Source of the DNA: Candidatus Daviesbacteria bacterium
Lineage (GTDB): Bacteria > Patescibacteriota > Microgenomatia > Daviesbacterales > UBA10151
NCBI GenBank assembly: GCA_030648645.1
Contig: JAUSHL010000014.1
Span: 1 to 34,522 of the forward strand
Direction of reading: 5' to 3'
DNA: 34,522 bases
Of the stretch, positions 15,755 to 18,860 are shown piece by piece. The translations under genes and the position numbers were made by a program. The first letter of the stretch is position 1; every line of letters starts with the position of its first letter. The notes below the pieces were generated by a model, which did not search any database, had not been told where the DNA came from, and saw only the letters and a list, made by a program, of their open reading frames with translations.

Positions 15755-15895
15755 TATTCTTCGAACGAAGTGAGAAGTTTCAATTGAAATTATGATATTT
15801 TTTATGGTAAGTTCTCGTCATCCGCCAGTTGGCGGATTCCTCGAACAATATTATTCTTCGAACGAAGTGAGAAGTTACTATATGAATTATGATAA
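15753..15895 (+). repeat. Local repeat family, left block (module copies at 15753 and 15841)
   Basis: ATTCTTCGAACGAAGTGAGAAGTT twice plus GTTCTC-hairpin-TCGAACAATAT; 39-bp core at 15841-15879 is identical to 16236-16274. Confidence 0.85.
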
Positions 15896-15904
15896 CCTTA
15901 AGAT

Positions 15905-16192
15905 ATGTTCTCACCTAAAGATTCGAACAATAGTCAGTGGAAATGGTATGTATATATTATTGAATGTAAAGATGGATTGTATTATACAGGGATGACTTGG
16001 AAACCTTCTATAAGATTTGAACAACATCTTTCTGGATTGGGAAGTAAATTTACAGCTAAACATGGAGTTCAAAAGTTAGTTTACCTTGAAGAACATGAAG
16101 ACTTAGAATTAGCAAGAAGAAGAGAAATCCAAATTAAGGATTTTAGTAGAAAAAAGAAAAAAATCCTAATTGATAGTTTTAATGATTTATAA
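15905..16192 (+). CDS. GIY-YIG endonuclease domain protein, flanked by direct repeats
   Basis: WYVYIIECKDGLYYTGMTWKPSIRFEQHLSG... Confidence 0.88.
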   Translation: MFSPKDSNNSQWKWYVYIIECKDGLYYTGMTWKPSIRFEQHLSGLGSKFTAKHGVQKLVYLEEHEDLELARRREIQIKDFSRKKKKILIDSFNDL

Positions 16193-16213
16193 TTATAATA
16201 TTGGTTCTTAATA

Positions 16214-16335
16214 GTTCTCTCCGGCAACTGCCGGATCGAACAATATTATTCTTCGAACGAAGTGAGAAGTTACTTTAAGAATTATAATATTTTCATGAGA
16301 AAGTTCTCTCCGGCAACTGCCGGATCGAACAATAT
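16214..16335 (+). repeat. Local repeat family, right block
   Basis: GTTCTCTCCGGCAACTGCCGGATCGAACAATAT at 16214 and 16303; 39-bp core 16236-16274. Confidence 0.85.
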
Positions 16336-16862: not shown

Positions 16863-18140
16863 ATGAAAATTACTTTTTTTGGGGTTGGATATGTTGGGCT
16901 TGTTTCAGGAGTATGTTTGGCTGATATTGGACATGAAGTATGTTTAGTGGGGCGTGACCCTAAAAAAATTGATAATTTAAAAAAAGGAATTTTGCCTATT
17001 TATGAACCCGGACTTGATAAATTAATTTTAAAAAATAAAAAAAGATTAATTTTTACCACTGACCCAAAAGTTGCCATAGAGTTTGCTGATATTTTATTTA
17101 TTGCAGTGGGAACACCTTCCAAAAAAAGCGGAGCTTGTGACCTTTCTCAGGTTGAAGAAGTTTCTAAATCTATTGGTAAATTTATAAATAATGAAAAAAT
17201 TATAGTTTTAAAAAGTACTGTACCTGTAGGATCTGAGGAAATTGTTGGAAAAATTATCTCCAAACACACAAATAAAAAATTCACTCTTGTTTCCAATCCT
17301 GAGTTTTTAAAAGAAGGTACTGCAATTGATGATTTTATGATTCCCGACAGGATTGTAATTGGTTCTGATGATAAAAAAAGTTTAGAAACAATTGAAGAAC
17401 TTTATAAACCAATAAAAACTGAGATTTACAAAACAGATATTAAAAGTGCCCAACTTATAAAATATGCCTCTAATTCATTTTTGGCAACAAAAATTTCCTT
17501 CATCAATGAAATAGCCAATTTAGCAGAAAGAGTTGGGGCGAATGTGGAAAGTGTAGCAATTGGTATGGGACTTGATAAAAGAATTGGGTCTCAATTTTTA
17601 AAAGCAGGTTTAGGGTATGGTGGATCATGTTTCCCTAAAGATGTAAAAGAGTTAATGAGTACATCTAAATCCAATGGTTACACTTTAAAAATATTGGATG
17701 CAGTAGATGATGTTAATAAAAAACAAAAAGTCTTAGCAGTTAAAAAATTAGAGAAAAAAATTAAAATTGAGGGAGCAAAAATAGCAATTTTAGGATTATC
17801 TTTTAAACCGGAAACAGATGATATGAGAGATGCTCCCAGTTTAGAAATTATCAGAGAACTTTTGAAAAAAGGAGCTAAAATAAATGCTTTTGATCCTATA
17901 GCAAAGGATAATTGTAAAAAAATAATTCCGGAGGCAAAATATTTTGATGATATTTATGAAACTGTAAAGAGTGTTGATGCTGTAATTTTTGTCACAGAAT
18001 GGAAAGAAATTAAAAAAATTGATCTGAAGAAATTAAAAGAGTTAGTAAAAAAACCAATTATTATTGATGGAAGAAATATTTTTAATCCCGAAGAAATGAG
18101 AGATTTAGGCTTTGACTACCAAAGCATAGGCAGAATTTGA
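16863..18140 (+). CDS. ugd: UDP-glucose/GDP-mannose dehydrogenase family (likely UDP-glucose 6-dehydrogenase)
   Basis: GVGYVGLVSGVCLADIGHEV, NPEFLKEGTAIDDF, GLGYGGSCFPKDV, LGLSFKPETDDMRDAPS. Confidence 0.93.
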   Translation: MKITFFGVGYVGLVSGVCLADIGHEVCLVGRDPKKIDNLKKGILPIYEPGLDKLILKNKKRLIFTTDPKVAIEFADILFIAVGTPSKKSGACDLSQVEEVSKSIGKFINNEKIIVLKSTVPVGSEEIVGKIISKHTNKKFTLVSNPEFLKEGTAIDDFMIPDRIVIGSDDKKSLETIEELYKPIKTEIYKTDIKSAQLIKYASNSFLATKISFINEIANLAERVGANVESVAIGMGLDKRIGSQFLKAGLGYGGSCFPKDVKELMSTSKSNGYTLKILDAVDDVNKKQKVLAVKKLEKKIKIEGAKIAILGLSFKPETDDMRDAPSLEIIRELLKKGAKINAFDPIAKDNCKKIIPEAKYFDDIYETVKSVDAVIFVTEWKEIKKIDLKKLKELVKKPIIIDGRNIFNPEEMRDLGFDYQSIGRI

Positions 18141-18146
18141 TATAAT
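18141..18146 (+). promoter_or_regulatory. -10 element TATAAT immediately before the truncated tRNA-Glu copy
   Basis: gaTATAATtaatcacatGGCGCG. Confidence 0.6.
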
Positions 18147-18155
18147 TAATCACAT

Positions 18156-18214
18156 GGCGCGTTCGTCTAGTGGTTAGGACGGGTCGAGGCTTCGACCTAA
18201 TCGCGGGTTCGAAT
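18156..18214 (+). pseudogene. Truncated tRNA-Glu copy with replaced anticodon arm and missing T-stem/acceptor 3' strands
   Basis: Identical to tRNA-Glu over GGCGCGTTCGTCTAGTGGTTAGGACG and TAATCGCGGGTTCGAAT. Anticodon arm is GGTCGAGGCTTCGACC instead of CTGGGTTTTCATCCCAG. The 3' part is replaced by AAATGATTTAGG. Confidence 0.88.
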
Positions 18215-18233
18215 AAATGATTTAGGACTAAAG

Positions 18234-18482
18234 ATGATTTGTGCTTATATATTAGAATGTTGTGATAAGACTTATTATGTTGGGAGTACAAATAATATAG
18301 AACGAAGGTTAGTACAACATAATATGAAACAATGTCAGCATACTAAAAGTAGATTGCCAATAAAGTTGGTTTTTACAAGAGAATTTAGCACATTGAAAGA
18401 GGCAAGAGGATATGAGTATTTTCTTAAAAGACAAAGAAATATAAGCTTTTACAGAAAATTAATAAATGGCGCGTTCGTCTAG
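18234..18482 (+). CDS. GIY-YIG endonuclease between truncated and intact tRNA-Glu
   Basis: MICAYILECCDKTYYVGSTNNIERRLVQHNM...; last codons and TAG stop (18480-18482) lie in the tRNA-Glu 5' end. Confidence 0.85.
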   Translation: MICAYILECCDKTYYVGSTNNIERRLVQHNMKQCQHTKSRLPIKLVFTREFSTLKEARGYEYFLKRQRNISFYRKLINGAFV

Positions 18483-18540
18483 TGGTTAGGACGCTGGGTT
18501 TTCATCCCAGTAATCGCGGGTTCGAATCCCGCACGCGCTA
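18468..18540 (+). tRNA. tRNA-Glu(TTC)
   Basis: GGCGCGT-TC-GTCT-AGTGGTTA-GGAC-G-CTGGG-TTTTCAT-CCCAG-TAATC-GCGGG-TTCGAAT-CCCGC-ACGCGCT-A; full cloverleaf, no encoded CCA. Confidence 0.93.
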
Positions 18541-18575
18541 CTTTTAATTTGACTTTTGAATAATTTTTCTCTACA

Positions 18576-18860
18576 ATGTTTATTGTGACTAAATACCTAG
18601 TAATAGTTTTAGTGATAATTTTAATTCTTGGAGCAGTTTACTTTACTTTTTTTGGTAAAATAAACAAAGTTCTTTTTAATAAAGCAGAAACCCCAACCCC
18701 AACAGTTTCTCAAAGTATCATAGAAGTGGTTACAAAATCCAAAAGTGCAATTCCAACCCCAACCCCTGATCCTGAAGCAGATTTAACAGCCTTGGATAAA
18801 GATTTAGCAGATCTAGATAAAAGTAATGTCGATTTAACAAAGGATATAAATAATTTATGA
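18576..18860 (+). CDS. Small membrane-anchored Pro/Thr-rich protein
   Basis: N-terminal TM helix, TPTPT/PTPTPDP linker, coiled-coil-like tail; overlaps the next ORF (ATGA). Confidence 0.65.
   Translation: MFIVTKYLVIVLVIILILGAVYFTFFGKINKVLFNKAETPTPTVSQSIIEVVTKSKSAIPTPTPDPEADLTALDKDLADLDKSNVDLTKDINNL

Follow-up and report, generated by a model that had tools for sequence, protein, structure and literature searches.

A GIY-YIG nuclease cassette at a tRNA-Glu gene of a Daviesbacteria genome, probably one copy of a widespread tRNA-invading element family

The window, a stretch of 34,522 nucleotides from Candidatus Daviesbacteria bacterium, is contig C17 of a genome (G000) of 962 kb in 45 contigs, which is about 95% complete. 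The small size of this genome and the named relatives of the nuclease described below indicate the Patescibacteria/CPR group. It contains a cassette of about 250 bp with a single open reading frame (ORF), which encodes a GIY-YIG nuclease and lies between a broken copy of a tRNA-Glu gene (hereafter the remnant) and an intact one (Table 1). The cassette itself is well supported by its sequence.

Table 1. Features of the tRNA-Glu locus, in window coordinates.
Feature	Position	Strand	Evidence
TATAAT, probable -10 of the original tRNA-Glu promoter	18141..18146	+	sequence; TATAAT-like boxes at similar distance in relatives' empty tRNA-Glu loci
tRNA-Glu remnant, outer part (nt 1-26 of the intact tRNA)	18156..18181	+	26/26 identical
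Palindrome GGTCGA-GGCT-TCGACC (GGTCGAGGCTTCGACC) in place of the anticodon arm (nt 27-43)	18182..18197	+	
tRNA-Glu remnant, inner part (nt 44-60); break in the T-loop, GTTCGAAT	18198..18214	+	17/17 identical
GIY-YIG endonuclease ORF, 82 aa	18234..18482	+	Pfam PF01541, 5.1e-14; last codons within the intact tRNA
Intact tRNA-Glu(UUC), working gene, right end of the cassette	18468..18541	+	ARAGORN; Rfam RF00005, 68.1 bits

The main lines of this layout had been described in an earlier note made from the sequence. The copy at 18156–18214 does repeat the 5' part of the tRNA-Glu: all 43 matching positions (nt 1–26 and 44–60) are identical to the intact gene, and the break falls inside the T-loop. 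The spliced-alignment score of this copy is 78, and six non-cognate tRNAs aligned to the same stretch score 25 or less. The TATAAT box lies ahead of the broken copy, as described, at a distance of 9 nt and directly 3' of the stop codon of a nucleotide-sugar dehydrogenase-like ORF; a promoter consensus scan did not score it as a promoter. The nuclease ORF indeed ends inside the intact tRNA-Glu, its TAG stop (18480–18482) being formed by nt 13–15.

The exchange of the anticodon arm for another paired arm also holds, although the GGTCG/CGACC hairpin first proposed has to be corrected: the palindrome that replaces nt 27–43 has 16 nt, folded into a 6-bp stem and a 4-nt loop, where a normal anticodon arm has 17 nt, and it is therefore without an anticodon loop. 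Folding of the remnant as single-stranded DNA yields a hairpin that resembles a D-arm and the hairpin of the palindrome (z = -2.2). The sequence AATAAATG is present at both edges of the element (18212–18219 and 18461–18468), as first reported, but it does not stand as a meaningful repeat or a target-site duplication: none of the other loci inspected by eye showed a repeat of this kind, and it is therefore treated as chance or local microhomology.

Two familiar kinds of insertion were considered and rejected. An Rfam scan of positions 17900–18700 at E ≤ 1 found no intron family, and the intact tRNA is uninterrupted; the scan gave only the tRNA and two sub-threshold chance matches, which argues against a group I or group II intron or another known RNA. 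The locus also differs from a tyrosine-integrase genomic island seated at a tRNA, since the cassette is of about 250 bp with one GIY-YIG ORF and duplicates the 5' part of the tRNA, not a short 3' end as an att site.

Judging from its sequence, the protein is a GIY-YIG catalytic domain with conserved active-site residues. The UPF0213 structure 1zg2 matches it with E = 2.7e-9. The catalytic residues Y15, G17, R25, H29 and E61 are invariant in the 47 family proteins examined (47/47), and Y5 is kept in all 39 rows filled at that alignment column. The nuclease appears as a free-standing, single-domain enzyme encoded outside any self-splicing intron or intein. A GIY-YIG match occurs in 85 of the 95 genomes searched, small single-domain genes of this kind being very common in such reduced genomes. 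Relatives in viruses are few and distant (one weak relative among viral contigs, and GIY-YIG proteins only 35–43% identical in phage records), so that a phage origin is not established.

The closest genomes that could be compared with the window belong to other genera, so that empty alleles of its site are seen only in backgrounds far from identical to its own, a point against the reading proposed below. Among the 30 tRNA-Glu(UUC) loci of the family, the full cassette is found at one only, that of the window. Most of the remaining loci (and most of the 30) show the empty site which the earlier note had proposed to look for in relatives, i.e. a single tRNA-Glu with a promoter box directly upstream and neither ORF nor remnant. 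About four loci (L183, L184, L188 and L193; genomes G012, G007, G002 and G024) have a short 5' remnant and a hairpin, with no ORF, before the intact tRNA-Glu; these ORF-less remnants resemble non-autonomous mini-elements.

The spacer between tRNA-Phe and tRNA-Gly(GCC) provides a second comparison. It is only 4–25 nt long, and empty, in G026, G040, G034, G036 and G042, compared to 299 and 609 nt in G043 and G038, respectively, where a remnant and a nuclease cassette lie directly before tRNA-Gly. Because empty tRNA-Glu and tRNA-Phe/Gly sites exist in relatives, the sequence comparison identifies the cassette as the derived state.

The intact tRNA-Gly of G038 is the same in sequence as that of G034, where the site is empty. 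For G043, the native-like 3' remnant shares 32/33 positions with the tRNA of G035, which is of the same genus group, and the intact tRNA matches G035 at 27/33 positions and other families at 30/33; this single case, with short sequences, suggests that a foreign tRNA arrived with the element. Since the intact tRNA looks foreign and the native 3' half is left as a remnant, the whole tRNA may be cargo of the element at this one locus at least. In G041 and G035 a different ORF (L270, L271), HTH-like by eye and not GIY-YIG, lies between tRNA-Phe and tRNA-Gly, and this tRNA pair may therefore be a hot spot for several elements.

The arrangement is not confined to one gene. The genome of the window has seven GIY-YIG matches, five of which adjoin tRNAs. 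A survey was made of 120 GIY-YIG loci from this genome and its relatives, picked by similarity to the window protein. A same-strand tRNA lies directly 3' of the ORF in 48 of these loci and just 5' in 30; three have a tRNA on the opposite strand. The other 39 have no nearby tRNA, which is a point against reading these genes as tRNA elements.

The most frequent overlaps between the end of the ORF and the tRNA are of 10 nt (14 loci), 15 nt (8 loci) and 21 nt (4 loci). At the loci with a 10-nt overlap, the stop codon of the ORF is the conserved U8-A9-G10 of the tRNA; with 15 nt, as in the window, it falls on nt 13–15. The probability of adjacency in that register by chance is estimated at roughly 0.1% per locus, for about 45 tRNAs in 1 Mb. 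The tRNAs concerned include those for Glu, Asp, Val, Gly, Pro, Lys, Gln, Leu, His, Ser, Asn, Ala, Ile, Thr and Arg. Further loci were found in named records of Bacteroidota, Omnitrophota, Neomarinimicrobiota, Desulfobacterales and Saccharibacteria.

Remnants were searched for by an alignment that permits inserted or swapped segments, with the same stretch aligned to non-cognate tRNAs as the null. An upstream copy starting exactly at nt 1 of the adjacent tRNA was found in 38 of the 57 loci with a tRNA 3' of the ORF, all loci being counted. A search of genomes for GIY-YIG ORFs that end in the 5' end of a tRNA and follow a partial copy of it, which the earlier note had suggested, thus returns the arrangement many times over. 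The break positions, read by hand, go with the position of the palindrome. In remnants that extend to the T-loop (break at nt 50–60), the anticodon arm is replaced by the palindrome, often over nt 27–43 exactly. In those that end within the anticodon arm or close to it (nt 23–39), the palindrome is inserted in the D-arm region. At one locus, L046, the swapped arm is the T-arm.

Six loci (L052, L081, L097, L098, L099 and L137, of which L099 is from Bacteroidota) show the mirror image, in which the ORF follows the intact tRNA and precedes a 3' remnant that has an arm exchanged in the same manner. There, the duplicated part is the 3' part of the tRNA. The earlier claim that the element carries a replacement 5' part applies to loci of the window type, and has to be widened to the mirror-image loci and perhaps, in G043, to a whole tRNA. 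Other loci, including L056, L090, L103, L105, L107 and L120, have remnants on both sides of the ORF, and in L056, L090, L103 and L107 the same palindrome is present at both ends. Many loci have duplicated tRNA ends on the two sides of the ORF, and there the native copy can be identified only through comparison with an empty site. The idea of a sharp boundary at the palindrome, with host sequence outside and element sequence inside, was abandoned, since by eye both parts of the remnant usually match the local tRNA. Apparent tandem arrays of units made of a remnant and a nuclease ORF were observed at L094 and L096.

Full-length or nearly full-length arm-swapped tRNA copies occur at L090, L091, L097 and L098. 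Such copies would be expected if the remnants were decayed tRNA duplicates that lost the anticodon arm to avoid mis-decoding, a tRNA with no anticodon being harmless, and if the adjoining GIY-YIG ORF were incidental. This explanation is strongly disfavoured, and its probability is put at only a few percent: dozens of GIY-YIG genes keep a common register with tRNAs of many isotypes, the arms of the remnants are otherwise often identical to those of the tRNA, and the replacement is a clean palindrome whose class tracks the nuclease tree. That the same arrangement is met again at dozens of further tRNA genes, in many different bacteria, points to an undescribed and widespread family of tRNA-invading mobile elements. 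Together, the empty sites and the recurrence across isotypes and genomes bear out the earlier proposal that an endonuclease element entered the tRNA gene and that a working tRNA was re-formed behind it, under the old promoter.

The relation between palindrome and nuclease was examined in 47 loci whose palindrome is clear, on a protein tree from which the C-terminal part encoded by the tRNA was omitted. On this tree, which is based on few alignment columns and has weak forks in many places, the palindrome classes, assigned by hand, require 10 changes; 300 shuffles, which ignore host relatedness, gave 20.3 on average and never fewer than 17. For the anticodon-arm loci alone, the figures are 5 changes and 11.3 after shuffling (minimum 8). 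The tRNA isotype also clusters on the tree (27 changes vs 35.3), so the nuclease lineages appear to be partly faithful to an isotype. The five proteins of the CCTGCCTG class group together although they are only 39–54% identical and sit at tRNAs Leu, His, Asn, Leu and Leu. That the 8-nt CCTGCCTG arm is kept over such a distance is more than would be expected of an unselected neighbour. The GGTCGA palindrome of the window is the sole member of its class in the tree.

Three genomes, G016, G043 and G000, each have different palindromes at different cassettes. The cassettes of G016 and G043, and the CCTGCCTG cassette of G000, each group with the same palindrome in other genomes. By these comparisons, the palindrome follows the family tree of the nuclease and not the host, and linkage alone could account for part of the match. 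The earlier note had suggested that the altered arm might confer resistance to cleavage or prevent the copy from decoding; a one-off change of this kind is not supported, since the palindrome class follows nuclease phylogeny and matching copies are dispersed, which together point to a DNA sequence associated with the nuclease. The way in which the class tracks the protein tree may, indirectly, reflect a nuclease specificity matched to the palindrome.

Dispersed copies are indeed frequent. The palindrome GGTCGA-N4-TCGACC occurs 32 times in G000, always with 4-nt loops, and no more than six times in any of 94 relatives. About 25 of the 32 copies lie within a longer REP-like repeat of the GTCATTGCGAG type (GTCATTGCGAGGAG-GGTCGA-N4-TCGACC-CGACG..), often at contig ends (L241–L269). 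The copy of the window stands alone, outside such a repeat, and the shared core could therefore have another origin. One core lies within the 16S rRNA gene of G000; a further site in the RNase P RNA (L252), suspected by eye, was not confirmed by Rfam.

Palindromes of the form CCTGCCTG..CAGGCAGG are present in 47 of the 95 genomes (control, 0) and TCCCGAT..ATCGGGA in 56 (controls near 0). Genomes that own a CCTGCCTG cassette carry more CCTGCCTG copies than the others (p = 0.003); for owners of TCCGAT cassettes the difference is not significant (p = 0.08). Palindromes this common might be independent REP or MITE repeats, secondarily inserted into an unconstrained remnant and unrelated to the nuclease. 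This explanation, to which about one chance in ten is given, does not account well for the genome with different palindromes at each cassette, each matching the nuclease clade of other genomes, nor for the regular position of the palindrome, in the arm before the break and often as an exact swap of nt 27–43.

Palindromes also adjoin GIY-YIG genes of other kinds. A second GIY-YIG ORF of the window (15905–16192), with no tRNA, is bracketed by the exact palindromic 20-mer TTCTTCGAACGAAGTGAGAA (at 15757, 15854 and 16249, spanning 15757–16268), which occurs 7 times in the genome (reversed control, 0). In GIY-YIG genes of other phyla (L069, L070, L072, L074, L075 and L079), palindromes of the GGTGGTTTCGACAAGCTCAACCACC type adjoin the ORF.

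Several known systems share features with the cassette. The mORF gene-hybrid elements of fungal mitochondria (atp6 of Allomyces; atp6, atp9, cox2 and nad3 of Glomus) consist of a free-standing endonuclease ORF that splits a gene and brings a replacement gene end, the native end being left as a remnant (PMC3630166). The tRNA cassette differs from them in that it targets a bacterial tRNA gene, usually duplicates the 5' end, has its ORF stop in the tRNA and carries a lineage-specific palindrome in the remnant; the mORF of Glomus atp6 also encodes a LAGLIDADG enzyme, not a GIY-YIG one (PMC3630166). Insertion sequences with homing endonucleases in the rRNA genes of CPR bacteria concern the same kind of bacteria and endonucleases in structured RNA genes, but they lie inside rRNA genes, are mostly of the LAGLIDADG type, and tRNA is unmentioned in the main text of that study (PMC11270868).

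Another similar system is SegB of T-even phages, a free-standing GIY-YIG homing endonuclease which adjoins tRNA genes and cuts within them near a T-loop motif; microhomology has been reported between the 3' end of segB and the 5' end of a tRNA (PMC2988022, PMC13096335). SegB of phage T6 prefers RAWTSGAAC, the other strand of which, GTTCSAWTY, is the T-loop (PMC13096335), and the break of the window remnant falls exactly within this same motif. In the accessible text of these papers, segB is described as intergenic in a tRNA cluster, with no mention of a swapped-arm remnant or of coding into the tRNA (PMC2988022, PMC13096335).

An ordinary free-standing homing endonuclease of this type could cut empty tRNA genes in the T-loop or the anticodon region, the cassette then being copied by double-strand-break repair, and the palindrome would be no more than a by-product, or an RNA hairpin with a regulatory role ahead of the ORF. 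RNA hairpins are indeed found upstream of several T4 endonuclease genes, including segB (PMC2988022). At less than one chance in five, this explanation is unlikely, although it is the strongest of the competing ones. The palindromes at both ends of at least four loci and 3' of the ORF in mirror-image loci mean that a hairpin in the 5' UTR does not explain the loci in general, and the idea was demoted for this reason; the dispersal of matching palindromes in the genome also stands against it.

Considering now the reading preferred here, the palindrome is most likely, by analogy, the recognition sequence of the nuclease at the end of the element, as in nuclease-repeat pairs of the REP or Ssn/NTS type. 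The Ssn proteins are single-strand-specific GIY-YIG nucleases which go with NTS/dRS3 palindromes, repeats of the TCCC..GGGA type. Compared by description only, they resemble the cassette in the association of a small GIY-YIG protein with a dispersed palindrome, and differ from it in that tRNA insertion is not among their known features. In REP elements with a RAYT transposase, a nuclease-like gene lies between its own palindromes, copies of which are dispersed in the genome, and the cassette is similar in both respects; unlike RAYT, its enzyme is GIY-YIG and not a Y1 tyrosine transposase, and its seat is in tRNA genes. REP superfamilies have been described (PMC3733652). The best reading by analogy is that the cassette operates in the manner of the fungal mORFs and of phage SegB, to which it adds REP-like palindromes. 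Relative to the known endonuclease systems that invade tRNAs or other genes, the swapped arm and its palindrome are the new element. No description of a tRNA-seated GIY-YIG family was found in the literature searched, most subscription journals and preprints being outside coverage.

The explanation that best accounts for these observations, with a probability of about two in three, is that the locus is one copy of a widespread and minimal mobile family, in which a free-standing GIY-YIG cassette invades tRNA genes, carries or regenerates a working tRNA, and has a nuclease-specific palindrome at its end. The nuclease gene would have been inserted into the tRNA gene in such a way that the host promoter is followed by the broken 5' copy, the ORF and the intact tRNA, the 5' end of which doubles as the last codons and the stop of the ORF. 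The spread of the element would depend on cleavage of tRNA genes, the cut probably falling in or close to the T-loop or the anticodon arm, where the remnants break. The target of the nuclease would be either the tRNA genes or the palindromes that lie at the ends of the element, and the cassette would be copied in by recombination or repair, with its tRNA sequence as homology.

The element would supply the 5' part of the tRNA or the whole tRNA, so that the host retains a working gene, and the intact tRNA would keep the host alive. The arm of the remnant just 5' of the break is replaced by, or carries, the palindrome specific to the nuclease lineage. A point against this explanation is that the intact tRNA still holds the presumed cut site. 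A more specific version, somewhat doubtful at about one chance in three, describes a tRNA-seated family of REP-type transposons: single-domain GIY-YIG nucleases would recognise lineage-specific palindromes and insert into tRNA arms, carrying a functional tRNA with them. The ends would be marked by what is left of the old tRNA, in which a palindrome takes the place of an arm, and the palindromes would be recognition and end sequences that also exist as dispersed non-autonomous repeats.

Of the small GIY-YIG genes examined, a large share adjoin tRNA genes, and do so in a fixed register. If the proposed explanation is correct, tRNA genes are the homing sites of a widespread selfish element which replaces or rewrites the tRNA that it invades, and this would provide a route for the exchange of tRNA genes between species. 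The pairs of nuclease and palindrome would offer many natural specificities ready for testing, and they bear on the spread of palindromic repeats.
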